Program-made: the position numbers and the translations under genes
Part shown: positions 1 through 28,286 of the stretch, in pieces
How positions within the stretch are numbered: the stretch's first letter is position 1
Layout: each line of letters opens with the position of its first letter
The notes under the pieces: generated by a model
What the model was told of the DNA's origin: nothing
Database searches by the model: none
What the model saw: the letters and a program-made list of their open reading frames with translations, nothing else
DNA from: Saccoglossus kowalevskii
Taxonomy: Eukaryota > Hemichordata > Enteropneusta > Harrimaniidae
Direction of reading: 5' to 3'
NCBI RefSeq assembly: GCF_000003605.2
Contig: NW_003128453.1
Location: 1 to 28,286, forward strand
Length of the DNA: 28,286 bases

Positions 1-622
1 AAGAGTGGACATTCATAATGTGACAATTTTAGTGCAGTGGACATTCACAATGTGACATTTTAGTGCAGTAGATATTCACAATGTGACATTTTCGTGCAGT
101 AAACATTCACAATGTGACATTTTAGTGCAGTAGACATTCACAGAGTGACATTTTAGTGCAGTAGACATTCACAATGTGTCATTTTAGTACAGTAGACATT
201 CACAATGTGATATTTTAGTGCAGTAGACATTCACAATGTGTCATTTTAGTACAGTAGACATTCACAATGTGACATTTTAGTGCAGTAGACATTCACAATG
301 TGACATTTTAGTACAGTAGACATTCGCAATGTGACATTTTTGTGTAGTGGACATTTACAATGTGTCATTTTAATGCAGTGGACATTCACAATGTGACATT
401 TTAGTGCAGTGGAAATTCACAATGTGACATTTTAGTGCAGTGGACATTCACAATGTGACATTTTAGTACAGTAGATATTCACAGTGTAACATTTTTGTGC
501 AGTGAATATTAACAATGTGACATTTTCGTGCAGTAGACATTCACAATGTGACATTTTAGTACAGTAGACATTCACAATGTGACATTTTCGTGCAGTAAAC
601 ATTAACAATGTGACATTTTAGT

Positions 623-655
623 GCAGTAGACATTAGACATATTTTAGTGTAAATA
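623..655 (+). repeat. Short 26-bp monomer, a marker of M2 (first of 14)
   Basis: In place of the usual CACAATGTGACA core segment this monomer has AGACATA, five bases less, giving CATTAGACATATTTT. The same change recurs with CATTAGACAT starting at 631, 1930, 3658, 4180, 6403, 7327, 8995, 12212, 19885, 22017, 22382, 24512, 25499 and 26548. Because the change is complex and identical each time, it almost surely arose once and was spread with its HOR block. It is followed by GTGTAATAG, GTGCAGTAG or GTGCAATAG, or by AATGTAATAG (19885 and 22382), which splits the copies into lineages. The five-base loss shifts the register of everything downstream relative to a strict 31-bp grid. Confidence 0.9.
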
Positions 656-1321
656 GACATTCACAATGTGACATTTTTGTGCAGTAGACATTCACAGAGT
701 GACATTTTAGTGCAGTAGACATTCACAATTGTGTCATTTTAGTAAAGTAGACATTCACAATGTGACATTTTAGTACAATAGATATTCACAATGTGACATT
801 TTACTACAATAGATATTCACAATGTGACATTTTTGTGCAGTGAAGATTCACAATGTGACACTTGTGTGCAGTAGACAATCACAATGTGATATTTTAGTAC
901 AGTAGACATTCACAATGTGACATTTTAGTACAATAGATATTCACAATGTGACATTTTCGTGCAGTAAACATTCACAATGTGACATTTTAGTGCAGTAGAC
1001 ATTCACAATGTGACATTTTCGTGCAGTAAACATTCACAATGTGACATTTTAGTGCAGTAGACATTCACAGAGTGACATTTTAGTGCAGTAGACATTCACA
1101 ATGTGACATTTTCGTGCAGTAAACATTCACAATGTGACATTTTAGTGCAGTAGACATTCACAATGTGACATTTTCGTGCAGTAAACATTCACAATGTGAC
1201 ATTTTAGTGCAGTAGACATACACAGAGTGACATTTTAGTGCAGTAGACATTCACAATGTGACATTTTAGTACAGTAGACATTCACAATGTGACATTTTCG
1301 TGCAGTAAACATTCACAATGT

Positions 1322-1570
1322 GACATTTTAGTGCAGTAGACATTCACAGAGTGACATTTTAGTGCAGTAGACATTCACAATGTGTCATTTTAGTACAGTA
1401 GACATTCACAATGTGACATTTTCGTGCAGTAAACATTCACAATGTGACATTTTAGTGCAGTAGACATTCACAGAGTGACATTTTAGTGCAGTAGACATTC
1501 ACAATGTGACATGTTAGTACAGTAGACATTCACAATGTGACATTTTCGTGCAGTAAACATTAACAATGTG
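1322..1570 (+). repeat. 124-bp four-monomer sub-repeat inside M1
   Basis: Within M1 four linked variants follow one another: a core CACAGAGTG, a monomer with AATGTGTC or AATGTGAC, a TTTTAGTACAGTAGAC linker and a TTTTCGTGCAGTAAAC linker. The CACAGAGTG core recurs exactly 124 bp apart, for example near 1345 and 1469, 10449 and 10573, 15709 and 15833, 16674 and 16798, and 17818 and 17942. The round just before each run usually starts with CATACACAGAGTG. This is a second periodicity nested between the 31-bp monomer and the kilobase HOR, and implies that a four-monomer unit was amplified before the larger HOR formed. Confidence 0.85.
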
Positions 1571-1985
1571 ACATTTTAGTGCAGTAGACATTCACAATGT
1601 GACATTTTAGTGCAGTAGACATTCGCAATGTGACATTTTTGTGTAGTGGATATTTACAATGTGTCATTTTAATGCAGTGGACATTCACAATGTGACATTT
1701 TAGTGCAGTGGAAATTCACAATGTGACATTTTAGTGCAGTGGACATTCACAATGTGACATTTTAGTACAGTAGATATTCACAGTGTAACATTTTTGTGCA
1801 GTGAATATTAACAATGTGACATTTTCGTGCAGTAGACATTCACAATGTGACATTTTAGTACAGTAGACATTCACAATGTGATATTTTCGTGCAGTAAACA
1901 TTAACAATGTGACATTTTAGTGCAGTAGACATTAGACATATTTTAGTGTAATAGACATTCACAATGTGTCATTTTTGTGCAGTAG
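1509..1985 (+). repeat. Block related to 21627-22072, about 20.1 kb away
   Basis: Both stretches share GACATGTTAGTACAG (1509, 21627), an AGTGCAGTAGACATTCGC linker in place of the usual AGTACAG, and AATGTGTCATTTTTGTGCAG after the short monomer. The offset is 20,118 bp at the left and 20,087 bp at the short monomer (1930, 22017): exactly one 31-bp monomer is absent from the right-hand copy, near 21920, where a GTGCAGTGAACATTC linker fuses two types. Confidence 0.8.
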
Positions 1986-3200
1986 ACATTTTCAATGTGT
2001 CATTTTAATGCAGTTGACATTCACAATGTGACATTTTAGTGCAGTGGAAATTCACAATGTGACATTTAGTGCAGTGGACATTCACAATGTGACATTTTAA
2101 TGCAGTGGACATTCACAATGTGACATTTTAGTGCAGTGGAAATCCACAATGTGACATTTAGTGCAGTGAATATTCACAATGTGACATTTTAGTACAGTAG
2201 ATATTCACAGTGTAACATTTTTGTGCAGTGAATATTCGCAATGTGATATTTTAGTGCAGTGGATATTCACAATGTGTCATTTTAAAGCAGTGGATATTCA
2301 CAATGTGACATTTTAGTACAGTAGATATTCACAATGTGACATTTTAGTACAATAGATATTCACAATGTGACATTTTAGTACAATAGATATTCACAATGTG
2401 ACATTTTTGTGCAGTGAAGATTTACAATGTGACATTTGTGTTCAGTGGACAATCACAATGTGATATTTTAGTACAGTAGATATTCACAATGTGACATTTT
2501 AGTACAATAGATATTCACAATGTGACATTTTAGTACAATAGATATTCACAATGTGACATTTTTGTGCAGTGAAGATTCACAATGTGACATTTTAGTAGAG
2601 TGGACATTCACAATGTGACATTTTAGTGCGATGGATATTCACAATGTGACATTTTCGTGCAGTAAACATTCACAATGTGACATTTTAGTGCAGTAGATAT
2701 TCACAATGTGACATTTTAGTGCAGTAGATATTCACGATGTGACATTTTTGTGTAGTAGACATTCACAATGTGACATTTTAGTGCAATAGACATTCACAAT
2801 GTGACATTTTAGTCCAATAGACATTCACAATGTGATATTTTCGTGCAGTAAACATTCACAATGTGACATTTTAGTCCAGTAGACATTCACAATGTGACAT
2901 TTTCGTGCAGTAGACATTCACAGAGTGACATTTTAGTGCAGTGGACATTCACAATGTGACATTTTAGTGCAGTAGACATACACAGAGTGATATTTTAGTG
3001 CAGTAGACATTCACAATGTGACATTTTAGTACAGTAGACATTCACAATGTGACATTTTCGTGCAGTAAACATTCACAATGTGACATTTTAGTGCAGTAGA
3101 CATTCACAGAGTGACATTTTAGTGCAGTAGACATTCACAATGTGTCATTTTAGTACAGTAGAAATTCACAATGTGACATTTTCGTGCAGCAACATTAACA

Positions 3201-3704
3201 ATGTGACATTTTAGTGCAGTAGACATTCACAATGTGACATTTTAGTACAGTAGACATTCACAATGTGACATTTTCGTGCAGTAAACATTAACAATGTGAC
3301 ATTTTAGTGCAGTAGACATTCACAATGTGACATTTTAGTACAGTAGACATTCGCAATGTGACATTTGTGTGTAGTGGACATTTACAATGTGTCATTTTAA
3401 TGCAGTGGACATTCACAATGTGACATTTTAGTGCAATGTAAATTCACAATGTGACATTTTAGTGCAGTGGACATTCACAATGTGACATTTTAGTACAGTA
3501 GATATTCACAGTGTAACATTTTTGTGCAGTGAATATTAACAATGTGACATTTTCGCGCAGTAGACATTCACAATGTGACATTTTAGTACAGTAGACATTC
3601 ACAATGTGACATTTTCGTGCAGTAAACATTAACAATGTGACATTTTAGTGCAGTAGACATTAGACATATTTTAGTGCAGTAGACATTTTCAATGTGTCAT
3701 TTTA
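3201..3704 (+). repeat. Block duplicated 22,890 bp away at 26091-26594
   Basis: About 504 bp match 26091-26594 at a constant offset of 22,890 bp, with one mismatch seen (GACATTTTC at about 3686 against GACACTTTC). Shared rare variants are ACATTTGTGTGTAGTGG, GTGCAATGTAAATT (3431, 26321) and TTTTCGCGCAG (3551, 26441), each found only at these two places. The match starts just after a CAGCAACATTAAC change here and ends at the jump into M3. The two lie near opposite ends of the window, so homogenisation here is not only between neighbours. Confidence 0.85.
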
Positions 3705-3960
3705 AAGCAGTGGATATTCACAATGTGACATTTTAGTACAGTAGATATTCACAATGTGACATTTTAGTACAGTAGATATTCACAATGTGACATTTTAGTA
3801 CAATAGATATTCACAATGTGACATTTTAGTACAATAGATATTCACAATGTGTCATTTTAGTACAGTAGACATAAACAATGTGACATTTTCGTGCAGTAAA
3901 CATTCACAATGTGACATTTTAGTGCAGTAGACATTCACAGAGTGACATTTTAGTGCAGTG

Positions 3961-4468
3961 TAAATTCACAATGTGACATTTTAGTGCAGTGGACATTCAC
4001 AATGTGACATTTTAGTACAGTAGATATTCACAGTGTAACATTATTGTGCAGTGAATATTAACAATGTGACATTTTCGTGCAGTAGACATTCACAATGTGA
4101 CATTTTAGTACAGTAGACATTCACAATGTGACATTTTCGTGCAGTAAACATTAACAATGTGACATTTTAGTGCAGTAGACATTAGACATATTTTAGTGTA
4201 ATAGACATTCACAATGTGACATTTTTGTGCAGTAGACATTTTCAATGTGTCATTTTAATGCAGTTGACATTCACAATGTGACATTTTAGTGTAGTGGACA
4301 TTCACAATGTGACATTTTAATGCAGTGGACATTCACAATGTGACATTTTAGTGCAGTGGAAATTCACAATGTGACATTTAGTGCAGTGAATATTCACAAT
4401 GTGACATTTTAGTACAGTAGATATTCACAGTGTAACATTTTTGTGCAGTGAATATTCACAATGTGATA
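3961..4468 (+). repeat. Block duplicated at 7108-7615
   Basis: About 508 bp read as identical to 7108-7615 at offset 3147, checked at GTGTAAATTC and GTAACATTATTG (the latter near 4035 and 7182). Both continue through the short monomer (4180, 7327) and GTGTAGTGGACATTCAC. They part where this copy has GATATTATAGTG and the other GATATTTTAGTG. Just upstream, 3841-3950 instead matches about 6771-6880 at offset 2930; the 217-bp change in offset is exactly seven monomers. Confidence 0.85.
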
Positions 4469-5219
4469 TTATAGTGCAGTGGATATTCACAATGTGTCAT
4501 TTTAAAGCAGTGGATATTCACAATGTGACATTTTAGTACAGTAGATATTCACAATGTGACATTTTAGTACAATAGATATTCACAATGTGACATTTTAGTA
4601 CAATAGATATTCACAATGTGACATTTTTGTGCAGTGAAGATTCACAATGTGACATTTGTGTGTAGTGGACAATCACAATGTGATATTTTAGTACAGTAGA
4701 TATTCACAATGTGAAATTTTAGTACATAGATATTCACAATGTGACATTTTAGTACAATAGATATTCACAATGTAACATTTTTGTGCAGTGGAAATTCACA
4801 ATGTGACATTTAGTGCAGTGAATATTCACAATGTGACATTTTAGTACAGTAGATATTCACAGTGTAACATTTTTTGTGCAGTGAATATTCACAATGTGAT
4901 ATTTTAGTGCAGTGGATATTCACAATGTGTCATTTTAAAACAGTGGATATTCACAATGTGACATTTTAGTACAGTAGATATTCACAATGTGACATTTTAG
5001 TACAATAGATATTCACAATGTGACATTTTAGTACAATAGATATTCACAATGTGACATTTTTGTGCAGTGAAGATTCACAATGTGACATTTGTGTGCAGTG
5101 GACAATCACAATGTGATATTTTAGTACAGTAGATATTCACAATGTGACATTTAATACAATAGATATTCACAATGTGACTTTTTAGTACAATAGATATTCA
5201 CAATGTGACATTTTTGTGC
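4356..5219 (+). repeat. 14-monomer tandem duplication in M3
   Basis: The order from GTGGAAATTC at 4356 restarts at 4788, an offset of 432 bp (14 monomers less two bases). At the join a GTGTAACATTTTTGTGCAG monomer runs directly into GTGGAAATTC, a pairing not seen elsewhere. The copies have drifted: the first has GTGTGTAGTGG and AGTACATAG, the second GTGTGCAGTGG and AATACAATAG, so this is older than the 866-bp duplication or one copy has been partly overwritten. Confidence 0.75.
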
Positions 5220-5286
5220 AGTGAAGATTCACAATGGGACATTTTAGTAGAGTGGACATTCACAATGTGCCATTTTAGTGCGATGG

Positions 5287-8001
5287 ATATTCACAATGTG
5301 ACATTTTCGTACAGTAAACATTCACAATGTGACATTTTAGTGCAGTATATATTCACAATGTGACATTTTAGTGCAGTAGATATTCACAATGTGACATTTT
5401 TGTGTAGTAGACATTCACAATGTGATATTTTAGTGCAATAGACATTCACAATGTGACATTTTAGTCCAGTAGACATTCACAATGTGACATTTTCGTGCAG
5501 TAAACATTCACAATGTGACATTTTAGTGCAGTAGACATTCACAGAGTGACATTTTAGTGCAGTAGACATTCACAATTTGACATTTTTGTGCAGTAAACAT
5601 TCACAATGTGACATTTTAGTGCAGTAGACATTCACAATGTGACATTTTCGTGCAGTAAACATTCACAATGTGACATTTAGTGCAGTAGACATACACAGAG
5701 TGACATTTTAGTGCAGTAGACATTCACAATGTGACATTTTAGTACAGTAGACATTCACAATGTGATATTTTCTTGCAGTAAACATTCACAATGTGACATT
5801 TTAGTGCAGTAGACATTCACAGAGTGACATTTTAGTGCAGTAGACATTCACAATGTGTCATTTTAGTACAGTAGACATAAACAATGTGACATTTTCGTGC
5901 AGTAAACATTCACAATGTGACATTTTAGTGCAGTAGACATTCACAGAGTGACATTTTAGTGCAGTAGACATAAACAATGTGACATTTTAGTACAGTAGAC
6001 ATTCACAATGTGACATTTTCGTGCAGTAAACATTAACAATGTGACATTTTAGTGCAGTAGACATTCACAATGTGACATTTTAGTACAGTAGACATTCGCA
6101 ATGTGACATTTTTGTGTAGTGGACATTTACAATGTGTCATTTTAATGCAGTGGACATTCACAATGTGACATTTTAGTGCAGTGTAAATTTACAATGTGAC
6201 ATTTTAGTGCAGTGGACATTCACAATGTGACATTTTAGTACAGTAGATATTCACAGTGTAACATTTTTGTGCAGTGAATATTAACAATGTGACATTTTCG
6301 TGCAGTAGACATTCACAATGTGACATTTTAGTACAGTACACATTCACAATGTGACATTTTCGTGCAGTAAACATTAACAATGTGACATTTTAGTGCAGTA
6401 GACATTAGACATATTTTAGTGCAGTAGACATTTTCAATGTGTCATTTTAATGCATTTGACATTCACAATGTGACATTTTAGTGCAGTGGACATTCACAAT
6501 GTGACATTTTAATGCAGTGGACATTCACAATGTGACATTTTAGTGCAGTGGAAATTCACAATGTGACATTTAGTGCAGTGAATATTCACAATGTGACATT
6601 TTAGTACAGTAGATATTCAAAGTGTAACATTTTTGTGCAGTGAATATTCACTATGTGATATTATAGTGCAGTGGATATTCACAATGTGTCATTTTAAAGC
6701 AGTGGATATTCACAATGTGACATTTTAGTACAGTAGATATTCACAATGTGAAATTTTAGTACAATAGATATTCACAATGTGTCATTTTAGTACAGTAGAC
6801 ATAAACAATGTGACATTTTCGTGCAGTAAACATTCACAATGTGACATTTTAGTGCAGTAGACATTCACAGAGTGACATTTTAGTGCAGTAGACATTCACA
6901 ATGTGACATTTTAGTACAGTGGACATTCACAATGTGACATTTTCATGCAGTAAACATTAACAATGTGACATTTTAGTGCAGTAGACATTCACAATGTGAC
7001 ATTTTAGTACAGTAGACATTCGCAATGTGACATTTTTGTGTAGTGGACATTTACAATGTGTCATTTTAATGCAGTGGACATTCACAATGTGACATTTTAG
7101 TGCAGTGTAAATTCACAATGTGACATTTTAGTGCAGTGGACATTCACAATGTGACATTTTAGTACAGTAGATATTCACAGTGTAACATTATTGTGCAGTG
7201 AATATTAACAATGTGACATTTTCGTGCAGTAGACATTCACAATGTGACATTTTAGTACAGTAGACATTCACAATGTGACATTTTCGTGCAGTAAACATTA
7301 ACAATGTGACATTTTAGTGCAGTAGACATTAGACATATTTTAGTGTAATAGACATTCACAATGTGACATTTTTGTGCAGTAGACATTTTCAATGTGTCAT
7401 TTTAATGCAGTTGACATTCACAATGTGACATTTTAGTGTAGTGGACATTCACAATGTGACATTTTAATGCAGTGGACATTCACAATGTGACATTTTAGTG
7501 CAGTGGAAATTCACAATGTGACATTTAGTGCAGTGAATATTCACAATGTGACATTTTAGTACAGTAGATATTCACAGTGTAACATTTTTGTGCAGTGAAT
7601 ATTCACAATGTGATATTTTAGTGCAGTGAATATTCACAATGTGTCATTTTAAAGCATTGGATATTCACAATGTGACATTTTAGTACAGTAGATATTCACA
7701 ATGTGACATTTTAGTACAATAGATATTCACAATGTGACATTTTAGTACAATAGATATTCACAATGTGACATTTTTGTGCAGTGAAGATTCACAATGTGAC
7801 ATTTGTGTGCAGTGGACAATCACAATGTTATATTTTAGTACAGTAGATATTCACAATGTGACATTTTAGTACAATAGATATTCACAATGTCACATTTTAG
7901 TACAATAGATATTCACAATGTGACATTTTTGTGCAGTGAAGATTCACAGTGTGACATTTTAGTAGAGTGGACATTCACAATGTGACATTTTAGTGCGATG
8001 G
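5287..8001 (+). repeat. HOR interval 3 (two M2 modules, shortened first M3)
   Basis: M1 runs from 5287 to about 6085 with the CGTG/AGTG alternation, CACAGAGTG cores and a CATAAACAATG variant. M2 starts near 6090 with its short monomer at 6403, and M3 follows only to about 6790. An M1 fragment (about 6790-7015), a second M2 (from about 7019, short monomer at 7327) and a full M3 ending at GTGCGATGG (7993-8001) complete it. The first M2/M3 part is nearly identical to 24409-24860 and the second to 3961-4468, so this interval shares recent ancestry with two distant places in the array. Confidence 0.78.
6300..6751 (+). repeat. Block duplicated 18,109 bp away at 24409-24860
   Basis: About 452 bp read as identical at offset 18,109 bp. 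Shared rare variants are GTACAGTACACATTC, AATGCATTTGAC, GATATTCAAAGTG and TATTCACTATGTG. Downstream the copies rejoin at CATAAACAATG (about 6800 and 25063) with the offset raised by about 154 bp, that is five monomers less one base, so one copy has lost or gained five monomers. Confidence 0.85.
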
Positions 8002-8237
8002 ATATTCACAATGTGACATTTTCGTGCAGTAAACATTCACAATGTGACATTTTAGTGCAGTAGATATTCACAATGTGACATTTTAGTGCAGTAGATATTC
8101 ACAATGTGACATTTTAGTCCAGTAGACATTCACAATGTGACATTTTCGTGCAGTAAACAATCACAATGTGACATTTTAGTCCAGTAGACATTCACAATGT
8201 GACATTTTCTTGCAGTAAACATTCACAATGTGACATT
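7660..8237 (+). repeat. Block duplicated at 14679-15256
   Basis: About 578 bp here read as identical to 14679-15256, at a constant offset of 7019 bp. Shared rare variants include CACAATGTTATATT (7821, 14840), AATGTCACATT (about 7886, 14905), GATTCACAGTGTG (about 7940, 14959) and AAACAATCAC (about 8157, 15176). On the left, TTTTAAAGCATTGG here is replaced by TTTTAGTACAATAG there; on the right, AGTACAGTAG is replaced by TTGTGTAGTAG. CACAATGTTATATT recurs near 28003, hinting at a third relative at the right edge. Confidence 0.87.
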
Positions 8238-9875
8238 TTAGTACAGTAGACATTCACAGAGTGACATTTTAGTGCAGTAGACATTCACAATGTGACATTT
8301 TCGTGCAGTAAACATTCACAATGTGACATTTTAGTGCAGTAGACATTCATAATGTGACATTTTCGTGCAGTAAACATACACAATGTGACATTTTAGTGCA
8401 GTATACATACACAGAGTGACATTTTAGTGCAGTAGACATTCACAATGTGACATTTTAGTACAGTAGACATTCACAATGTGACATTTTCGTGAAGTAAACA
8501 TTCACAATGTGACATTTTAGTGCAGTAGACATTCACAGAGTGACATTTTAGTGCAGTAGACATTCACAATGTGACATTTTAGTACAGTAGACATTCACAA
8601 TGTGACATTTTCGTGCAGTAAACATTAACAATGTGACATTTTAGTGCAGTAGACATTCACAATGTAACATTTTAGTACAGTAGACATTCGCAATGTGACA
8701 TTTTTGTGTAGTGGACATTTACAATGTGTCATTTTAATGCAGTGGACATTCACAATGTGACATTTTAGTGCAGTGGAAATTCACAATGTGACATTTTAGT
8801 GGAGTGGACATTCACAATGTGACATTTTAGTACAGTAGATATTCACAGTGTAACATTTTTGTGCAGTGAATATTAACAATGTGACATTTTCGTGCAGTAG
8901 ACATTCACAATGTGACATTTTAGTACAGTAGACATTCACAATGTGACATTTTCGTGCAGTAAACATTAACAATGTGACATTTTAGTGCAGTAGACATTAG
9001 ACATATTTTAGTGTAATAGACATTCACAATGTGACATTTTTGTGCAGTTGACATTTTCAATGTGTCATTTTAATGCAGTTGACATTCACAATGTGACATT
9101 TTAGTGCAGTGGAAATTCACAATGTGACATTTAGTGCAGTGGACATTCACAATGTGACATTTTAATGCAGTGGACATTCACAATGTGACATTTTAGTGCA
9201 GTGGAAATTCACAATGTGACATTTAGTGCAGTGAATAATCACAATGTGACATTTTAGTACAGTAGATATTCACAGTGTAACATTTTTGTGCAGTGAATAT
9301 TCACAATGTGATATTTTAGTGCAGTGGATATTCACAATGTGTCATTTTAAAGCATTGGATATTCACAATGTGACATTTTAGTGCAGTAGCTATTCACAAT
9401 GTGACATTTAGTGCAGTGAATAATCACAATGTGACATTTTAGTACAGTAGATATTCACAGTGTAACATTTTTGTGCAGTGAATATTCACAATGTGATATA
9501 TTAGTGCAGTGGATATTCACAATGTGTCATTTTAAAGCAGTGGATATTCACAATGTGACATTTTAGTACAGTAGATATTCACAATGTGACATTTTAGTAC
9601 AATAGATATTCACAATGTGACATTTTAGTACAATAGATATTCACAATGTGACATTTTTGTGCAGTGAAGCTTCACAATGTGACATTTGTGTGCAGTGGAC
9701 AATCACAATGTGATATTTTAGTACGGTAGATATTCACAATGTGACATTTTAGTACAATAGATATTCACAATGTGACATTTTAGTACAATAGATATTCACA
9801 ATATGACATTTTTGTGCAGTGAAGATTCACAATGTGACATTTTAGTAGAGTGGACATTCACAATGTGACATTTTA
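7993..9875 (+). repeat. Reference copy of the higher-order repeat (M1-M2-M3)
   Basis: This is the clearest near-complete HOR copy, running from one GTGCGATGG mark (7993-8001) to the base before the next (9876), 1883 bp or about 61 monomers. M1 (about 8002-8685) has the CGTGCAGTAAAC and AGTCCAGTAGAC linkers and the CACAGAGTG cores. M2 (about 8686-9220) opens with CATTCGCAATG, passes GTGTAGTGGACATTTAC and the GTGTAAC core, and contains the short monomer at 8995. M3 (about 9221-9875) carries TTTTAAAGCA, AGTACAATAGAT, GTGAAGCTT and GTGGACAATC variants and ends with AGTAGAGTGG. A six-monomer tandem duplication enlarges its M3. Module names are mine; the order is read directly from the variants. 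Confidence 0.85.
9231..9540 (+). repeat. Six-monomer tandem duplication in M3
   Basis: The block beginning GTGAATAATC at 9231 restarts at 9416, 185 bp later (six monomers less one base). Both copies share the AATAATC change, which marks them as one lineage. A GTAGCTATT linker monomer stands just before the second copy; the same linker is otherwise seen near 23050 and 23422. The second copy differs by TGTGATATATTAG against TGTGATATTTTAG. Confidence 0.8.
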
Positions 9876-11311: not shown

Positions 11312-11610
11312 ATATTCACAATGTGACATTTTCGTGCAGTAAACATTCACAATGTGACATTTTAGTGCAGTAGATATTCACAATGTGACATTTTAGTGCA
11401 GTAGATATTCACAATGTGATATTTTTGTGTAGTAGACATTCACAATGTGACATTTTAGTGCAATAGACATTAACAATGTGACATTTTAGTCCAGTAGACA
11501 TTCACAATGTGTCATGTTCGTGCAGTAAACATTCACAATGTGACAGTTTAGTCCAGTAGACATTCACAATGTGACATTTTCTTGCAGTAAACATTCACAA
11601 TGTGACATTT
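11001..11610 (+). repeat. Block duplicated at 16911-17520
   Basis: About 610 bp correspond to 16911-17520 at a constant offset of 5910 bp, checked at TTAATACAAT (11051, 16961), TGACAGTTTA (11541, 17451) and CTTGCAGTAA (11581, 17491). A long T-run stands at the same point in both, six T here and eight there (GACTTTTTTTTG, about 17144). The marker TGTGTCATGTTCG is shared by the two, and a related TGTGTCATGTTTG lies near 23779. Confidence 0.82.
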
Positions 11611-12915
11611 TTGTGCAGTAGACATTCACAATGTGACATTTTAGTGCAATAGACATTCACAATGTGACATTTTAGTCCAGTAGACATTCACAATGTGACA
11701 TTTTCGTGCAGTAAACATTCACAATGTGACATTTTAGTGCAGTAGACATTCACAGAGTGACATTTTAGTGCAGTAGACATTCACAATGTGTCATTTTAGT
11801 ACAGTAGACATTCACAATGTGACATTTTCGTGCAGTAAACATTCACAATGTGACATTTTAGTGCAGTAGACATTCACAATGTGACATTTTAGTACAGTAG
11901 ACATTCACAATGTGACATTTTCGTGCAGTAAACATTAACAATGTGACATTTTAGTGCAGTAGACATTCACAGAGTGACATTTTAGTGCAGTAGACATTCA
12001 CAATGTGACATTTTAGTGCAGTGGACATTCACAATGTGACATTTTAGTACAGTAGATATTCACAGTGTAACATGTTTGTGCAGTGAATATTAACAGTGTG
12101 ACATTTTCGTGCAGTAGACATTCACAATGTGACATTTTAGTACAGTAGACATTCACAATGTGACATTTTAGTGCAGTAAACATTAACAATGTGACATTTT
12201 AGTGCAGTAGACATTAGACATATTTTAGTGCAATAGATATTCACAATGTGACATTTTTGTGCAGTAGACATTTTCAATGTGTCATTTTAATGCAGTTGAC
12301 ATTCACAATGTGACATTTTAGTGCAGTGGAAATTCACAATGTGACATTTAGTGCAGTGGACATACACAATGTGACATTTTAATGCATTGGACATTCACAA
12401 TGTGACATTTTAGTGCAGTGGAAATTCACAATGTGACATTTAGTGCAGTGAATATTCACAATGTGACATTTTAGTACAGTAGATATTCACAGTGTAACAT
12501 TTTTGTGCAGTGAATATTCACAATGTGATATTTTAATGCAGTGGATATTCACAATGTGTCATTTTAAAGCAGTGGATATTCACAATGTGACATTTTAGTA
12601 CAGTAGATATTCACAATGTGACATTTTAGTACAATAGATATTCACAATGTGACATTTTAGTACAATAGATATTCACAATGTGACATTTTTGTGCAGTGAA
12701 GATTCACAATGTGACATTTGTGTGCAGTGGACAGTCACAATGTGATATTTGAGTACAGTAGATATTCACAATGTGACATTTTAGTACAATAGATATTCAC
12801 AATGTGACATTTTAGTACAATAGATATTCACAATGTGACATTTTTGTGCAGTGAAGATTCACAATGTGACATTTTAGTAGAGTGGACATTCACAATGTGA
12901 CATTTTAGTGCGATG
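11312..12915 (+). repeat. HOR interval 6 (M2 entered without its CATTCGC opening)
   Basis: M1 carries the rare variants TGTGTCATGTTCG (about 11506) and GTGACAGTTTA (about 11541), shared only with 17416-17460 and, in altered form, with about 23780-23820. Near 12000 M1 passes into the middle of M2, skipping the CATTCGC and GTGTAGTGG monomers. The short monomer is at 12212. M3 (about 12400-12915) has private changes GGACAGTCAC, ATATTTGAGTAC and a one-base-shorter GTGCGATGATATT, all repeated in the next interval. Confidence 0.76.
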
Positions 12916-13836
12916 ATATTCACAATGTGACATTTTCGTGCAGTAAACATTCACAATGTGTCATTTTAGTTCAGTAGATATTCACAATGTGACATTTTAG
13001 TGCAGTAGATATTCACAATGTGACATTTTTGTGTAGTAGACATTCACAATGTGACATTTTAGTGCAATAGACATTCACAATGTGACATTTTAGTCCAGTA
13101 GACATTCACAATGTGACATTTTCGTGCAGTAAACATTCACAATGTGACATTTTAGTACAGTAGACATTCACAATGTGACATTTTCGTGCAGTAAACATTC
13201 ACAATGTGACATTTTAGTGCAGTAGACATTCACAGAGTGACATTTTAGTGCAGTGGAAATTCACAATGAGACATTTTAGTGCAGTGGAAATTCACAATGT
13301 GACATTTAGTGCAGTGAATATTCACAATGTGACATTTTAGTACAGTAGATATTCACAGTGTAACATTTTTGTGCAGTGAATATTCACAATGTGATATTTT
13401 AATGCAGTGGATATTCACAATGTGTCATTTTAAAGCAGTGGATATTCACAATGTGACATTTTAGTACAGTAGATATTCACAATGTGACATTTTAGTACAA
13501 TAGATATTCACAATGTGACATTTTAGTACAATAGATATTCACAATGTGACATTTTTGTGCAGTGAAGATTCACAATGTGACATTTGTGTGCAGTGGACAG
13601 TCACAATGTGATATTTGAGTACAGTAGATATTCACAATGTGACATTTTAGTACAATAGATATTCACAATGTGACATTTTAGTACAATAGATATTCACAAT
13701 GTGACATTTTTGTGCAGTGAAGATTCACAATGTGACATTTTAGTAGAGTGGACATTCACAATGTGACATTTTAGTGCGATGATATTCACAATGTGACATT
13801 TTCGTGCAGTAAACATTCACAATGTGTCATTTTAGT
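12412..13836 (+). repeat. Recent 866-bp tandem duplication (28 monomers)
   Basis: The stretch 12412-12970 and the stretch 13278-13836 read as identical by eye over about 559 bp, at a constant offset of 866 bp (28 monomers less two bases). Both carry the private variants TTTTAATGCAGTGGATATT, GGACAGTCAC, ATATTTGAGTAC and the one-base-shorter GTGCGATGATATT, found nowhere else in the window. Identity ends where the first continues AGTTCAGTAG and the second AGTACAATAG. Such private sharing over adjacent copies fits one recent unequal exchange or replication-based duplication. Confidence 0.88.
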
Positions 13837-17221: not shown

Positions 17222-20200
17222 ATATTCACAATGTGACATTTTCGTGCAGTAAACATTCACAATGTGACATTTTAGTGCAGTAGATATTCACAATGTGACA
17301 TTTTAGTGCAGTAGATATTCACAATGTGACATTTTTGTGTAGTAGACATTCACAATGTGACATTTTAGTGCAATAGACATTAACAATGTGACATTTTAGT
17401 CCAGTAGACATTCACAATGTGTCATGTTCGTGCAGTAAACATTCACAATGTGACAGTTTAGTCCAGTAGACATTCACAATGTGACATTTTCTTGCAGTAA
17501 ACATTCACAATGTGACATTTTAGTGCAGTAGACATTCACAGAGTGACATTTTAGTGCAGTAGACATTCACAATGTGACATTTTCGTGCAGTAAACATTCA
17601 CAATGTGACATTTTAGTGCAGTAGACATTCACAATGTGACATTTTCGTGCAGTAAACATTCACAATGTGACATTTTAGTGCAGTAGACATACACAGAGTG
17701 ACATTTTAGTGCAGTAGACATTCACAATGTGACATTTTAGTACAGTAGACATTCACAATGTGACATTTTCGTGCAGTAAACATTCACAATGTGACATTTT
17801 AGTGCAGTAGACATTCACAGAGTGACATTTTAGTGCAGTAGACATTCACAATGTGTCATTTTAGTACAGTAGACATTCACAATGTGACATTTTCGTGCAG
17901 TAAACATTCACAATGTGACATTTTAGTGCAGTAGACATTCACAGAGTGACATTTTAGTGCAGTAGACATTCACAATGTGACATTTTAGTACAGTAGACAT
18001 TCACAATGTGACATTTTTGTGCAGTAAACATTAACAATGTGACATTTTAGTGCAGTAGACATTCACAATGTGACATTTTAGTACAGTAGACATTCGCAAT
18101 GTGACATTTTTGTGTAGTGGACATTTACAATTTGTCATTTTAATGCAGTGGACATTCACAATGTGACATTTTAGTGCAGTGGAAATTCACAATGTGACAT
18201 TTTAGTGCAGTGGACATTCACAATGTGACATTTTAGTACAGTAGATATTCACAGTGTAACATTTTTGTGCAGTGAATATTCACAATGTGATATTTTAGTG
18301 CAGTGAATATTCACAATGTGTCATTTTAAAGCATTGGATATTCACAATGTGACATTTTAGTACAGTAGATATTCACAATGTGACATTTTAGTACAATAGA
18401 TATTCACAATGTGACATTTTAGTACAATAGATATTCACAATGTGACATTTTTGTGCAGTAAACATTCACAATGTGACATTTTAGTGCAGTCAATATTCAC
18501 AATGTGACATTTTAGTGCAGTAGACATTCACAATGTGACATTTTCGTGCAGTAAACATTCACAATGTGACATTTTAGTCCAGTAGACATTCACAATGTGA
18601 CATTTTCTTGCAGTAAACATTCACAATGTGACATTTTAGTGCAGTAGACATTCACAGAGTGACATTTTAGTGCAGTAGACATTCACAATGTGACATTTTC
18701 GTGCAGTAAACATTCACAATGTGACATTTTAGTCCAGTAGACATCACAATGTGACATTTGTGCAGTAAACATTCACAATGTGACATTTAGTGCAATAGAC
18801 ATCACAGAGTGACATTTTAGTGCAGTAGACATTCACAATGTGACATTTTCGTGCAGTAAACATTTACAATGTGACATTTTAGTGTAGTAGACATTCACAA
18901 TGTGACATGTTCGTGCAGCAAACATTCACAATGTGACATTTTAGTGCAGTAGATATTCACAATGTGACATTTTAGTGCAGTAGATATTCACAATGTGACA
19001 TTTTTGTGTAGTAGACATTCACAATGTGACATTTTAGTGCAATAGACATTCACAATGTGACATTTTAGTCCAGTAGACATTCACAATGTGACATTTTAGT
19101 CCAGTAGACATTCACAATGTGACATTTTCGTGCAGTAAACATTCACAATGTGACATTTTAGTGCAGTAGACATTCACAGAGTTACATTTTAGTGCAGTAG
19201 ACATTCACAATGTGGCATTTTCGTGCAGTAAACATTCACAATGTGACATTTTAGTGCAGTAGACATTCACAATGTGACATTTTCGTGCAGTAAACATTCA
19301 CAATGTGACATTTTAGTGCAGTAGACATACACAGAGTGACATTTTAGTGCAGTAGACATTCACAATGTGACATTTTAGTACAGTAGACATTCACAATGTG
19401 ACATTTTCGTGCAGTAAACATTCACAATGTGACATTTTAGTGCAGTAGACATTCACAGAGTGACATTTTAGTGCAGTAGACATTCACAATGTGTCATTTT
19501 AGTACAGTAGACATTCACAATGTGACATTTTCGTGCAGTAAACATTCACAATGTGACATTTTAGTGCAGTAGACATTCACAGAGTGACATTTTAGTGCAG
19601 TAGACATTCACAATGTGACATTTTAGTACAGTAGACATTCACAATGTGACATTTTCGTGCAGTAAACATTAACAATGTGTCATTTTAATGCAGTGGACAT
19701 TCACAATGTGACATTTTAGTGCAGTGGAAATTCACAATGTGACATTTTTAGTGCAGTGGACATTCACAATGTGACATTTTAGTACAGTAGATATTCACAG
19801 TGTATCATTTTTGTGCAGTGAATATTAACAATGTGACATTTTCGTGCAGTAGACATTCACAATGTGACATTTTAGTACAGTAGACATTAGACATATTTTA
19901 ATGTAATAGACATTCACAATGTGACATTTTTGTGCAGTAGACATTTTCAATGTGTCATTTTAATGCAGTTGACATTCACAATGTGACATTTTAGTGCAGT
20001 GGAAATTCTCAATGTGACATTTAGTGCAGTGGACATTCACAATATGACATTTTAATGCAGTGGACATTCACAATGTGACATTTTAGTGCAGTGGAAATTC
20101 ACAATGTGACATTTAGTGCAGTGAATATTCACAATGTGACATTTTAGTACAGTAGATATTCACAGTGTAACATTTTTGTGCAGTGAATATTCACAATGTG

Positions 20201-20589
20201 ATATTTTAGTGCAGTGGATATTCACAATGTGTCATTTTAAAGCATTGGATATTCACAATGTGACATTTTAGTACAGTAGATATTCACAATGTGACATTTT
20301 AGTACAATAGATATTCACAATGTGACATTTTAGTACAATAGATATTCACAATGTGACATTTTTGTGCAGTGAAGATTCACAATGTGACATTTGTGTGCAG
20401 TGGACAATCACAATGTGATATTTTAGTACAGTAGATATTCACAATGTGACATTTTAGTACAATAGATATTCACAATGTGACATTTTAGTACAATAGATAT
20501 TCACAATGTGACATTTTTGTGCAGTGACGATTCACAATGTGACATTTTAGTAGAGTGGACATTCACAATGTGACATTTTAGTGCGATGG
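17222..20589 (+). repeat. HOR interval 10, longest (3368 bp), two M1 stretches
   Basis: M1 (17222-18085), M2 (from 18091, skipping the short monomer), and a cut-short M3 (about 18270-18450) are followed by an unusually long second M1 (about 18450-19670). In it the stretch 18720-18920 holds several small deletions (AGACATCACAATG, ATTTGTGCAG, ACATTTAGTGCAATAG) clustered within 200 bp. At about 19670 M1 passes into M2 at the AATGTGTCATTTTAATGCAG monomer; the short monomer is at 19885, and M3 ends at GTGCGATGG (20581-20589). Confidence 0.76.
19693..20524 (+). repeat. Block duplicated at 22191-23021
   Basis: About 830 bp match 22191-23021 at offset 2497-2498 bp. Shared markers are the short monomer followed by AATGTAATAG (19885, 22382) and CACAATATGACATTTTAATG (about 20038, 22535). 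Differences seen are few: one extra T at about 19747, GTGTATCATT against GTGTAACATT, TTCTCAATG against TTCACAATG, and CAATGTGTC against CAATATGTC. The match stops at TGTGCAGTGACG here and TGTGCAGTAAAC there. Confidence 0.85.
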
Positions 20590-20700
20590 ATATTCACAAT
20601 GTGACATTTTCGTGCAGTAAACATTCACAATGTGACATCTTAGTGCAGTAGACATTCACAATGTGACATTTTAGTGCAGTACATATTCACAATGTGACAT

Positions 20701-21229
20701 TTTTGTGTAGTAGACATTCACAATGTGATATTTTAGTGCAATAGACATTCACAATGTGACATTTTAGTCCAGTAGACATTCACAATGTGACATTTTCGTG
20801 CAGTAAACATTCACAATGTGACATTTTAGTCCAGTAGACATTCACAATGTGACTTTTTCGTGCAGTAAACATTCACAATGTGACATTTTAGTGCAGTAGA
20901 TATTCACAGAGTGACATTTTAGTGCAGTAGACATTCACAATGTGACATTTTAGTGCAGTAGATATTCACAATGTGACATTTTTGTGTAGTAGACATTCAC
21001 AATGTGACATTTTAGTGCAATAGACATTCACAATGTGACATTTTAGTCCAGTAGACATTCACAATGTGACATTTTCGTGCAGTAAACATTCACAATGTGA
21101 CATTTTAGTCCAGTGGACATTCACAATGTGACATTTTCGTGCAGTAAACATTCACAATGTGACATTTTAGTGCAGTAGACATTCACAGAGTGACATTTTA
21201 GTGCAGTAGACATTCACAATGTGACATTT
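20701..21229 (+). repeat. Nine-monomer tandem duplication in M1
   Basis: The order starting TTTTGTGTAGTAGAC at 20701 restarts at 20980, an offset of 279 bp, exactly nine monomers. Both copies run through AGTGCAATAG, AGTCCAGTAG, CGTGCAGTAA, AGTCCAGT, CGTGCAGTAA, the CACAGAGTG core and AGTGCAGTAG, and part ways at about 21230. A few substitutions separate them (for example GACTTTTTCG in the first, AGTCCAGTGG in the second), so it is recent but not the newest event here. Confidence 0.8.
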
Positions 21230-23042
21230 TCGTGCAGTAAACATTCACAATGTGACATTTTAGTGCAGTAGACATTCACAATGTGACATTTTCGTGCAGT
21301 AAACATTCACAATGTGACATTTTAGTGCAGTAGACATACACAGAGTGACATTTTAGTGCAGTAGACATTCACAATGTGACATTTTAGTACAGTAGACATT
21401 CACAATGTGACATTTTCGTGCAGTAAACATTCACAATGTGACATTTTAGTGCAGTAGACATTCACAGAGTGACATTTTAGTGCAGTAGACATTCACAATG
21501 TGTCATTTTAGTACAGTAGACATTCACAATGTGACATTTTCGTGTTGTAAACATTCACAATGTGACATTTTAGTGCAGTAGACATTCACAGAGTGACATT
21601 TTAGTGCAGTAGACATTCACAATGTGACATGTTAGTACAGTAGACATTCACAATGTGACATTTTCGTGCAGTAAACATTAACAATGTGACATTTTAGTGC
21701 AGTAGACATTCACAATGTGACATTTTAGTGCAGTAGACATTCGCAATGTGACATTTTTGTGTAGTGGACATTTACAATGTGTCATTTTAATGCAGTGGAC
21801 ATTCACAATGTGACATTTTAGTGCAGTGGAAATTCACAATGTGACATTTTAGTGCAGTGGACATTCACATTGTGACATTTTAGTACAGTAGATATTCACA
21901 GTGTAACATTTTTGTGCAGTGAACATTCACAATGTGACATTTTAGTACAGTAGACATTCACAATGTGATATTTTCGTGCAGTAAACATTAACAATGTGAC
22001 ATTTTAGTGCAGTAGACATTAGACATATTTTAGTGTAATAGACATTCACAATGTGTCATTTTTGTGCAGTAGATATTTTCAATGTGTCATTTTAATGCAG
22101 TTGACATTCACAATGTGACATTTTAGTGCAGTGGAAATTCACAATGTGACATTTTCGTGCAGTAAACATAACAATGTGACATTTAATGCAGTGGACATTC
22201 ACAATGTGACATTTTAGTGCAGTGGAAATTCACAATGTGACATTTTAGTGCAGTGGACATTCACAATGTGACATTTTAGTACAGTAGATATTCACAGTGT
22301 AACATTTTTGTGCAGTGAATATTAACAATGTGACATTTTCGTGCAGTAGACATTCACAATGTGACATTTTAGTACAGTAGACATTAGACATATTTTAATG
22401 TAATAGACATTCACAATGTGACATTTTTGTGCAGTAGACATTTTCAATATGTCATTTTAATGCAGTTGACATTCACAATGTGACATTTTAGTGCAGTGGA
22501 AATTCACAATGTGACATTTAGTGCAGTGGACATTCACAATATGACATTTTAATGCAGTGGACATTCACAATGTGACATTTTAGTGCAGTGGAAATTCACA
22601 ATGTGACATTTAGTGCAGTGAATATTCACAATGTGACATTTTAGTACAGTAGATATTCACAGTGTAACATTTTTGTGCAGTGAATATTCACAATGTGATA
22701 TTTTAGTGCAGTGGATATTCACAATGTGTCATTTTAAAGCATTGGATATTCACAATGTGACATTTTAGTACAGTAGATATTCACAATGTGACATTTTAGT
22801 ACAATAGATATTCACAATGTGACATTTTAGTACAATAGATATTCACAATGTGACATTTTTGTGCAGTGAAGATTCACAATGTGACATTTGTGTGCAGTGG
22901 ACAATCACAATGTGATATTTTAGTACAGTAGATATTCACAATGTGACATTTTAGTACAATAGATATTCACAATGTGACATTTTAGTACAATAGATATTCA
23001 CAATGTGACATTTTTGTGCAGTAAACATTCACAATGTGACAT

Positions 23043-23756
23043 TTTAGTGCAGTAGCTATTCACAATGTGACATTTTAGTGCAGTAGATATTCACAATGTG
23101 ACATTGTTGTGTAGTAGACATTCACAATGTGACATTTTAGTGCAATAGACATTCACAATGTGACATTTTAGTCCAGTGGACATTCACAATGTGACATTTT
23201 CGTGCAGTAAACATTCACAATGTGACATTTTAGTGCAGTAGACATTCACAGAGTGACATTTTAGTGCAGTAGACATTCACAATGTGTCATTTTAGTAAAG
23301 TAGACATTCACAATGTGACATTTTAGTACAATAGATATTCACAATGTGACATTTTAGTACAATAGATATTCACAATGTGACATTTTTGTGCAGTGAAGAT
23401 TCACAATGTGACATTTAGTGCAGTAGCTATTCACAATGTGACATTTTAGTGCAGTAGATATTCACAATGTGACATTGTTGTGTAGTAGACATTCACAATG
23501 TGACATTTTAGTGCAATAGACATCACAATGTGACATTTTAGTCCAGTGGACATTCACAATGTGACATTTTCGTGCAGTAAACATTCACATTGTGACATTT
23601 TAGTGCAGTAGACATTCACAGAGTGACATTTTAGTGCAGTAGACATTCACAATGTGTCATTTTAGTAAAGTAGACATTCACAATGTGACATTTTAGTACA
23701 ATAGATATTCACAATGTGACATTTTAGTACAATAGATATTCACAATGTGACATTTT
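23043..23756 (+). repeat. 12-monomer tandem duplication with GTAGCTATT and ATTGTTGTG
   Basis: Two copies, 23043-23386 and 23414-23756, lie 371 bp apart at their starts and 370 bp at their ends, that is 12 monomers less one or two bases. Both carry the rare GTAGCTATT, GACATTGTTGTGTAG, AGTCCAGTGG and AGTAAAGTAG variants. The second has a one-base loss (AGACATCACAATG) and a TCACATTGTG change. AGTAAAGTAG also occurs once near 750, linking this block to the left edge of the window. Confidence 0.82.
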
Positions 23757-26700
23757 AGTCCAGTAGACATTCACAATGTGTCATGTTTGTGCAGTAAACA
23801 TTCATAATGTGACAGTTTAGTCCAGTAGACATTCACAATGTGACATTTTCTTGCAGTAAACATTCACAATGTGACATTTTAGTGCAGTAGACATTCACAG
23901 AGTGACATTTTAGTGCAGTAGACATTCACAATGTGACATTTTCGTGCAGTAAACATTCACAATGTGACATTTTAGTGCAGTAGACATTCACAATGTGACA
24001 TTTTCGTGCAGTAAACATTCACAATGTGACATTTTAGTGCAGTAGACATACACAGAGTGACATTTTAGTGCAGTAGACATTCACAATGTGACATTTTAGT
24101 ACAGTAGACATTCACAATGTGACATTTTCGTGCAGTAAACATTCACAATGTGACATTTTAGTGCAGTAGACATTCACAGAGTGACATTTTAGTGCAGTAG
24201 ACATTCACAATGTGTCATTTTAGTACAGTAGACATTCACAATGTGACATTTTCGTGCAGTAAACATTCACAATGTGACATTTTAGTGCAGTAGACATTCA
24301 CAGAGTGACATTTTAGTGCAGTAGACATTCACAATGTGACATTTTAGTACAGTAGACATTCACAATGTGACATTTTCGTGCAGTAAACATTAACAATGTG
24401 ACATTTTAGTGCAGTAGACATTCACAATGTGACATTTTAGTACAGTACACATTCACAATGTGACATTTTCGTGCAGTAAACATTAACAATGTGACATTTT
24501 AGTGCAGTAGACATTAGACATATTTTAGTGCAGTAGACATTTTCAATGTGTCATTTTAATGCATTTGACATTCACAATGTGACATTTTAGTGCAGTGGAC
24601 ATTCACAATGTGACATTTTAATGCAGTGGACATTCACAATGTGACATTTTAGTGCAGTGGAAATTCACAATGTGACATTTAGTGCAGTGAATATTCACAA
24701 TGTGACATTTTAGTACAGTAGATATTCAAAGTGTAACATTTTTGTGCAGTGAATATTCACTATGTGATATTATAGTGCAGTGGATATTCACAATGTGTCA
24801 TTTTAAAGCAGTGGATATTCACAATGTGACATTTTAGTACAGTAGATATTCACAATGTGACATTTAGTACAATAGATATTCACAATGTGACATTTTAGTA
24901 CAATATATATTCACAATGTGACATTTTTGTGCAGTGAAGATTCACAATGTGACATTTGTGTGTAGTGGACAATCACAATGTGATATTTTAGTACAGTAGA
25001 TATTCACAATGTGAAATTTTAGTACAATAGATATTCACAATGTGTCATTTTAGTACAGTAGACATAAACAATGTGACATTTTCGTGCAGTAAACATTCAC
25101 AATGTGACATTTTAGTGCAGTAGACATTCACAGAGTGACATTTTAGTGCAGTAGACATTCACAATGTGACATTTTAGTACAGTAGACATTCACAATATGA
25201 CATTTTCGTGCAGTAAACATTAACAATGTGACATTTTAGTGCAGTAAGACATTCACAATGTGACATTTTAGTACAGTAGACATTGGCAATGTGACATTTT
25301 TGTGTAGTGGACATTTACAATGTGTCATTTTAATGCAGGGGACATTCACAATGTGACATTTTAGTACAGTAGATATTCACAGTGTAACATTTTTTGTGCA
25401 GTGAATATTAACAATGTGACATTTTCGTGCAGTAGACATTCACAATGTGACATTTTCGTGCAGTAAACATTAACAATGTGACATTTTAGTGCAGTAGACA
25501 TTAGACATATTTTAGTGTAATAGACATTCACAATGTGACATTTTTGTGCAGTAGACATTTTCAATGTGTCATTTTAATGCAGTTGACATTCACAATGTGA
25601 TATTATAGTGCAGTGGATATTCACAACGTGTCATTTTAAAGCAGTGGATATTCACAATGTGACATTTTAGTACAGTAGACATTCACAATGTGACATTTTC
25701 GTGCAGTAAACATTCACAATGTGACATTTTAGTCCAGTAGACATTCACAATGTGACATTTTCGTGCAGCAAACATTCACAATGTGACATTTTAGTGCAGT
25801 AGACATTCACAGAGTTACATTTTAGTGCAGTAGACATTCACAATGTGACATTTTTGTGCAGTAAACATTCACAATGTGACATTTTAGTGCAGTAGACATT
25901 CACAATGTGACATTTTCGTGCAGTAAACATTCACAATGTGACATTTTAGTGCAGTAGACATACACAGAGTGACATTTTAGTGCAGTAGACATTCACAATG
26001 TGTCATTTTAGTACAGTAGACATAAACAATGTGACATTTTCGAGCAGTAAACATTCACAATGTGACATTTTAGTGCAGTAGACATTCACAGAGTGACATT
26101 TTAGTGCAGTAGACATTCACAATGTGACATTTTAGTACAGTAGACATTCACAATGTGACATTTTCGTGCAGTAAACATTAACAATGTGACATTTTAGTGC
26201 AGTAGACATTCACAATGTGACATTTTAGTACAGTAGACATTCGCAATGTGACATTTGTGTGTAGTGGACATTTACAATGTGTCATTTTAATGCAGTGGAC
26301 ATTCACAATGTGACATTTTAGTGCAATGTAAATTCACAATGTGACATTTTAGTGCAGTGGACATTCACAATGTGACATTTTAGTACAGTAGATATTCACA
26401 GTGTAACATTTTTGTGCAGTGAATATTAACAATGTGACATTTTCGCGCAGTAGACATTCACAATGTGACATTTTAGTACAGTAGACATTCACAATGTGAC
26501 ATTTTCGTGCAGTAAACATTAACAATGTGACATTTTAGTGCAGTAGACATTAGACATATTTTAGTGCAGTAGACACTTTCAATGTGTCATTTTAATGCAG
26601 TTGACATTCACAATGTGACATTTTAGTGCAGTGGACATTCACAATGTGACATTTTAATGCAGTGGACATTCACAATGTGACATTTTAGTGCAGTGGAAAT

Positions 26701-27320
26701 TCACAATGTGACATTTAATGCAGTGAATATTCACAATGTGACATTTTAGTATAGTAGATATTCACAGTGTAACATTTTTGTGCAGTGAATATTCACAATG
26801 TGATATTATAGTGCAGTGGATATTCACAATGTGTCATTTTAAAGCAGTGGATATTCACAATGTGACATTTTAGTACAGTAGATATTCACAATGTGACATT
26901 TTAGTACAATAGATATTCACAATGTGACATTTTAGTACAATAGATATTCACAATGTGACATTTTTGTGCAGTGAAGATTCACAATGTGACATTTGTGTGT
27001 AGTGGACAATCACAATGTGATATTTTAGTACAGTAGATATTCACAATGTGAAATTTTAGTACAATAGATATTCACAATGTGTCATTTTAGTACAGTAGAC
27101 ATAAACAATGTGACATTTTCGTGCAGTAAACATTCACAATGTGACATTTTAGTGCAGTAGACATTCACAGAGTGACATTTTAGTGCAGTAGACATTCACA
27201 ATGTGACATTTTAGTACAGTAGACATTCACAATGTGACATTTTCGTGCAGTAAACATTAACAATGTGACATTTTAGTGGAGTAGACATTCACAATGTGAC
27301 ATTTTAGTACAGTAGACATT

Positions 27321-27930
27321 CGCAATGTGACATTTTTGTGTAGTGGACATTTACAATGTGTCATTTTAATGCAGTGGACATTCACAATGTGACATTTTAG
27401 TACAGTAGATATTCACAGTGTAACATTTTTGTGCAGTGAATATTCGCAATGTGATATTTTAGTGCAGTGGATATTCACAATGTGTCATTTTAAAGCAGTG
27501 GATATTCACAATGTGACATTTTAGTACAGTAGACATTCACAATGTGACATTTTCGTGCAGTAAACATTAACAATGTGACATTTTAGTGCAGTAGACATTC
27601 ACAATGTGACATTTTAGTACAGTAGACATTCGCAATGTGACATTTTTGTGTAGTGGACATTTACAATGTGTCATTTTAATGCAGTGGACATTCACAATGT
27701 GACATTTCAGTGCAGTGGAAATTCACAATGTGACATTTCAGTGCAGTGGACATTCACAATGTGACATTTTAGTACAGTAGATATTCACAGTGTAACATTT
27801 TTGTGCAGTGAATATTCACAATGTGATATTTTAGTGCAGTGGATATTCACAATGTGTCATTTTAAAGCATTGGATATTCACAATGTGACATTTTAGTACA
27901 ATAGATATTCACAATGTGACATTTTAGTAC
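27321..27930 (+). repeat. Ten-monomer (310-bp) mini-HOR near the right edge
   Basis: The CGCAATGTGA mark at 27321 recurs at 27631, exactly ten monomers later, and the order GTGTAGTGG, ATTTACAATGTGTC, AATGCAGTGG repeats with it. In the first round M2 goes directly into AGTACAGTAGAT and the GTGTAAC core; M3 lasts a few monomers and M1 only two or three. The second round keeps GTGGAAATTC and has ATTTCAGTGCAG twice (about 27705 and 27736), a change not seen elsewhere. This is the shortest complete M1-M2-M3 round seen. Confidence 0.78.
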
Positions 27931-28286
27931 AATAGATATTCACAATGTGACATTTTTGTGCAGTGAAGATTCACAATGTGACATTTGTGTGCAGTGGACA
28001 ATCACAATGTTATATTTTAGTACAGTAGATATTCACAATGTGACATTTTAGTACAATAGATATTCACAATGTGACATTTTAGTACAATAGATATTCACAA
28101 TGTGACATTTTTGTGCAGTGAAGATTTACAATGTGACATTTGTGTTCAGTGGACAATCACAATGTGATATTTTAGTACAGTAGATATTCACAATGTGACA
28201 TTTTAGTACAATAGATATTCACAATGTGACATTTTAGTACAATAGATATTCACAATGTGACATTTTTGTGCAGTGAAGATTCACAA

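Follow-up and report, generated by a model that had tools for sequence, protein, structure and literature searches.

The stretch of DNA analyzed here (28,286 bp, called the window throughout) is made of copies of a 31-bp unit, and it raises the question of how far a satellite with so short a monomer can be ordered at the kilobase scale, how regular that order is, and what kind of process could have produced it.

One tandem array of a 31-bp monomer

TRF reports one tandem array in the window, with a period of 31 and 86% matches (Table 1); its + strand is arbitrary, being set by the TRF orientation. We segmented the array by wrap-around alignment to the TRF consensus, which yielded 917 pieces, 858 of them exactly 31 bp long; after removal of a 3-bp and a 15-bp piece at the ends, 915 monomers were used for all further analyses. 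These monomers comprise 210 distinct sequences and share on average 91.6% identity with the consensus. Neither TRF nor the segmentation revealed any foreign sequence interrupting the array, and a 22-base core occurs 133 times in the forward direction and never on the reverse strand of the whole window. The GC content stays between 31 and 35% in 1-kb steps across positions 1-28000; the consensus itself has an A+T content of 64.5% (20 of 31 bases, counted by hand).

No ORF of at least 150 aa, no Rfam match at the gathering score and no tRNA were found in the window, and the longest stop-free stretch in a six-frame scan is only 70 aa, which rules out a coding array. What we observe is a long, unbroken, head-to-tail, non-coding array, that is, a satellite. 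A first, sequence-only reading of this DNA had described a 31-bp satellite that fills the window and leaves no unique sequence in it; both descriptions hold, since TRF and the segmentation show no other stretch inside. A finer substructure of the monomer, with parts of 14 and 17 bp (hinted at by weak TRF rows), is not supported, the identity of the half-repeats being ordinary (p = 0.78); a 6-base word common to the two parts is borderline (p = 0.05).

Table 1. Features of the 31-bp array, in coordinates of the window.
Feature	Position	Strand	Basis
Single 31-bp tandem array, consensus AGTAGACATTCACAATGTGACATTTTAGTGC	4..28286	+	TRF, 915.5 copies; 915 monomers segmented
Uninterrupted 61-monomer round, 1,884 bp, used as template	932..2815	+	Lies within the 64-monomer in-register run
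17-monomer block	12417..12941	+	Identical to 13283-13807, 28 monomers apart
Second copy of the 17-monomer block	13283..13807	+	Monomer matrix
Example of the four-monomer (124-bp) sub-periodicity, positions 0-15	19196..19691	+	Position path; lag-4 identity
27-monomer block	19692..20522	+	99.6% identity to 22190-23019, 81 monomers apart
Second copy of the 27-monomer block	22190..23019	+	Monomer matrix
Short round of 36 monomers (positions 9-46 minus 28 and 31)	25984..27093	+	Position path

Ordered rounds of variable length

At the kilobase scale, the order of the monomers is far from random. The monomer-by-monomer identity matrix, proposed as a check along with the sequence-only reading, has pronounced off-diagonal structure, with 44 diagonal segments scoring at least 7 (maximum 3-4 in five order shuffles). 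The longest perfect monomer-for-monomer match spans 17 monomers (three order shuffles gave 3-4, three column shuffles 2), and 747 of the 914 steps belong to bigrams seen at least five times, where 200 shuffles average 114 and peak at 150. Knowing the preceding monomer lowers the uncertainty about the next one from 5.17 to 1.31 bits (merged labels); the same conditional uncertainty is 3.78 bits in shuffles, a fall that reflects sample size. For the labels, which also served for allele lists, variants seen at most three times were merged into a commoner variant that differed by a single mismatch; all identities (in the matrix, the path, the jumps and the template test) were computed on unmerged letters.

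The order can be written as a cyclic path of 61 positions (1,884 bp), which fits the 915 monomers with 66 register jumps; on shuffled order (five shuffles) the same path needs 194-213 jumps and its fit is 93.6-93.9%. Along this path the monomers have a mean identity of 98.6% to their position consensus, and 69% of them match it exactly. Two monomers that share a position are 97.5% identical, compared with 85.9% for two from different positions, as expected of a higher-order repeat (HOR). The result is stable to the jump penalty: values from 3 to 12 give 57-78 jumps, and at least 96% of the monomers hold their position. Not all 61 positions are unique, however, since several share a consensus (for example, 22 equals 36, and 1, 3, 7, 11, 51, and 59 are alike). 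We first traced the order by eye along the label string and then refined it on the data; an unedited template (monomers 30-90, the uninterrupted round in Table 1) removes this hand-reading choice. Applied to the 824 downstream monomers, with the 30 preceding ones left out, the template gives 61 jumps at 98.0% identity; the jumps numbered 191-208 in all five shuffles of the template order, and 168-173 in all three shuffles of the target order. The earlier estimate of about 60 distinguishable monomer positions is thus close to what the path recovers.

The rounds are not constant in length. We measured how far apart the successive occurrences of each of five landmark positions lie (87 distances): their median is 1,427 bp and 55 of them fall within 1-3 kb, but they range from 124 to 4,630 bp. 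Among fixed lags of at most 450 monomers, 118 monomers does best, with 6.1% exact matches, a level that 50 shuffles nearly reach (6.0%, lags up to 400). At the base level, autocorrelation declines smoothly along multiples of 31, and the 25 best lags among 1-4999 are all multiples of 31 up to 775 bp, although off-length monomers weaken this test. The landmark spacings and the lag tests together rule out a strict 1-3 kb period; the tandem rounds of constant length that define a regular HOR are absent here, with no dominant lag. Among the 67 in-register runs, one exceeds a full round (64 monomers), the next has 43, and the mean is about 14. What results is a mosaic made of ordered blocks. Of the kilobase level proposed from the sequence alone, the ordered succession with rounds of variable length is therefore retained, and the word “periodicity” is not, given the spread of the spacings and the lack of a dominant lag. 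For example, the short round in Table 1 closes by a jump from position 46 to position 10 at 27094; a second jump of the same type is found at 25057.

The 124-bp level, described earlier as a four-monomer sub-repeat “in M1”, is real but local rather than array-wide. Exact monomer matches at lag 4 were found in 51 of 911 cases, of which 49 start in positions 0-16 and two in positions 51-60; in the round consensus, lag-4 identity drops from 0.968 inside positions 0-16 to 0.859 inside 17-60. There are further echoes inside the round, at lag 5 (positions 40-42), lag 11 (13-15) and lag 14 (19-22). Echoes at several lags suggest that the round itself probably grew via smaller duplications.

Some blocks recur as long in-register copies (Table 1), and the 17-monomer pair presumably represents a recent local duplication. 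We also observed 14 monomers of an internally deleted form (13 of 26 bp, and one of 27 bp), at 625, 1924, 3652, 4174, 6397, 7321, 8989, 12206, 19879, 22011, 22376, 24506, 25493, and 26542. All 14 sit on round position 27; this deletion is presumably one old event passed on through the rounds. In addition, the variant monomers 41, 40, and 38 adjoin one another at 6732-6824, 24995-25087, and 27032-27124 (40 and 38 also at 3833-3894), a neighborhood that marks a minor subfamily of rounds.

Jumps between rounds and their possible origin

Rounds differ nearly always by whole monomers, so that the 31-bp register is kept: 25 off-length monomers are unexplained by round position, seven of them among the 132 junction monomers. 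At 21 of the 66 jumps the two positions have a near-identical flank at the consensus level (at least 30 of 31 bases), as compared to a null mean of 8.4 and a maximum of 17 in 2,000 draws; the mean flank identity at jumps is 0.926 (null 0.908, sd 0.005). This enrichment is what unequal exchange in register predicts. The other 45 jumps are without a near-identical flank, so homology-driven exchange is supported for a part of the jumps only. Junction monomers match their position consensus at 97.3%, and the other monomers at 98.9%. Reading the junction as a two-piece chimera gains at least one match at 23 of the 66 jumps (null 18.7%, or about 12) and at least two matches at seven (null 1.9%, or about one), where the null uses random partners that are unmatched for similarity. 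Eight recurrent jump types (30>32, 21>36, 27>29, and 46>10 among them) together make up 22 of the 66 jumps, and 27 jumps skip between one and five monomers (skip or repeat was called by the shorter way round the 61-position cycle, which is ambiguous in long jumps). Monomers that share a position are no less alike when they lie far apart, out to 28 kb (Spearman 0.02, p = 0.08, 6,655 pairs); this counts against a purely local exchange model, since such a model predicts decay.

The reading that we consider best, with a probability of roughly 0.8, is a non-coding satellite, most likely eukaryotic and chromosomal, that grew from a 31-bp unit, was reshuffled, and is heterochromatic; the figure is no higher because much of the mechanism rests on the 21 jumps with a near-identical flank. 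The array would have grown from the 31-bp unit until amplification came to act on a long block of diverged monomers as its unit. This block may then have been reshuffled, either by unequal crossing-over or by template switching during replication, acting between sister arrays at similar monomers; such exchange would homogenize the rounds and at the same time let their length vary. The array probably resides in heterochromatin (pericentromeric, subtelomeric, or sex-chromosomal), and beyond packaging it would have no sequence-coded job.

Two other processes could account for the scrambling of the rounds, and we weighed both against exchange. Excised circles of unlike sizes, amplified by a rolling-circle process and reinserted in tandem, would also give unequal rounds, and the flat identity with distance fits blocks drawn from a common pool; but this process predicts consecutive rounds of equal length, and successive landmark spacings are mostly unequal, so we regard it as rather unlikely. 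Somewhat less likely still is that the scrambling is in part an artifact of assembly, with reads of a regular 1.88-kb HOR joined at the wrong round, an explanation that is compatible with the satellite reading. The shortness of the in-register runs, only one of which exceeds a round, would be expected from it, as would the enrichment of jumps at near-identical monomers, which are also the spots where assemblers err. Against it, the recurrence of eight jump types is as expected of inherited variants, the grouping of variants 41, 40, and 38 is found in three places, and the skips of one to five monomers are shorter than most read lengths. The contig may nevertheless contain some assembly joins.

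Source, function and relatives of the array

Exact patterns of the repeat gave zero matches in viral contigs (three scans) and in the contigs of 84,980 bacterial and archaeal species, one genome each (two scans). Similarity searches of phages and plasmids with two queries from the window (2,001 and 1,391 bases) returned nothing at an E-value of 1e-5; raising the E-value limit to 10 brought up a plasmid at E = 1 and a single phage, in two records, at E = 5, all short and at chance level. The searched collections may leave out records close to the window's own genome. The absence from viral, prokaryotic, phage, and plasmid collections, together with the kind of sequence, points to a eukaryotic source. 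As for a prokaryotic or viral repeat array (iterons, a CRISPR-like array, or a phage repeat), the window has neither unique spacers nor an ORF of at least 150 aa for a neighboring replication gene, and with these negative searches such an origin is hardly credible. No paper with either of two literal stretches of the repeat turned up in a literature search; as sequences are seldom printed in text and the coverage has gaps, this weakly favors a family that is new to the literature. The kind of element is already known; its sequence family may be undescribed.

Could the repeat have a function? One candidate role is that of a centromere repeat, in which an 11-bp palindrome TCACAATGTGA, recurring every 31 bp, would be a putative protein site; this is compatible with the satellite reading. 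The exact palindrome is present in 618 of the 915 monomers, and HORs are common among candidate centromere repeats, being clear in 76 of the 171 species with Sanger data in the survey as cited here (PMC4053949). However, 9% of shuffled 31-mers contain a palindrome with an arm of five, and the three 93-base stretches that were folded all gave z-scores between -0.95 and -1.78; a special palindrome or single-strand structure is thus unsupported. Neither strand of the window contains an exact match to the 17-bp CENP-B box, which also speaks against this role, but none is expected by chance and most taxa need none. On balance a centromeric role is doubtful. We consider far less probable a stronger version, in which the family is undescribed and the succession of 61 variants is itself a functional unit, its order kept by selection or by directed amplification that spans tens of kilobases with no loss of similarity (for example, a centromere repeat with a putative protein-binding palindrome every three helical turns or so). 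A heterochromatic satellite without a coded product is the ordinary reading, and the one that we would prefer.

Two further properties of the sequence were examined. The monomer length is close to three helical turns and power of A/T dinucleotides is present at 31/3 bp; as the power at 15.5 and 7.75 bp is equal or higher, this gives no argument for phasing. CpG is scarce (165 observed, 774 expected), mirroring a single 31-bp word. At the CpG bases of the round consensus, transitions (5 of 324, 1.5%) are scarcely raised over those at other C and G (1.0-1.2%), and transversions (12 of 324, 3.7%) are raised over 0.8-0.9%; this does not look like CpG decay, so that the scarcity gives no support for a methylated genome. 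The raised transversions perhaps stem from exchange with variants in which that column is an A.

The rounds of alpha satellite are more constant in length than those of the present array. The number of distinguishable monomers per round is similar in the two, with alpha satellite HORs reaching a 59mer in orangutan (PMC11276891, as far as cited here), and their monomer is 171 bp. Closest in architecture is the 61-bp VNTR of the human pseudoautosomal region (Xp22.33), whose irregular HORs measure 1.6 and 2.5 kb and are arranged in a complex way (PMC2588610, in the passages cited); it likewise combines a short unit with variable kilobase rounds, but its unit is 61 bp and its array 18 kb, and the comparison is by architecture alone. 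The same source applies the name HOR to such irregular cases. It also gives HORs of 3,360 and 3,600 bp for the GAATG arrays of the human Y chromosome and of about 5.8 kb for an HsatII array; the GAATG arrays resemble ours in making a kilobase HOR from very many short units, with a 5-bp unit of other sequence. In a table of that paper, one human GAATG array has a listed length that coincides with that of our window (28,286); we take this as a coincidence, as the GAATG repeat is 5 bp and unrelated.

Units of 31 bp are known from other satellites. In ruminant satellite I (cervid satI and bovine 1.715), 31-bp subrepeats are arranged in units of about 0.7-1 kb (PMC7288315; PMC2760882; parts cited), and subrepeats of satI at the same position are more alike across species than those inside a single unit (PMC7835801, likewise in part). 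The likeness to our array is in unit length and arrangement; the GC content of satI is 46-54% in the table rows cited (PMC7288315; PMC7835801), compared with 31-35% here, and its units of about 0.7-0.9 kb have 18-21 copies of the motif, compared with 61 positions in 1,884 bp. RproSat29-31 of Rhodnius prolixus, in the data cited from PMC8199985, has the same unit length, but its A+T content is 77.4% (64.5% here), which argues that it is not the same unit. Irregular HORs of short units have already been published, and the kind of array is known. The nested HOR proposed by the sequence-only reading is supported in its approximately 60 monomers and its variable rounds; its view of such arrays as far less usual than alpha satellite is weakened by the human and ruminant examples (PMC2588610; PMC7288315; PMC2760882, as far as these sources are drawn on here).

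Apart from its traceable events, the array is ordinary satellite biology. Its value is that it preserves, in legible form, the making and breaking of a HOR in a short-unit satellite: because most of the 61 positions can be told apart by sequence, individual duplications and deletions can be traced, and actual sequences could be used to fit models of local unequal crossing-over, template switching, and circle amplification.
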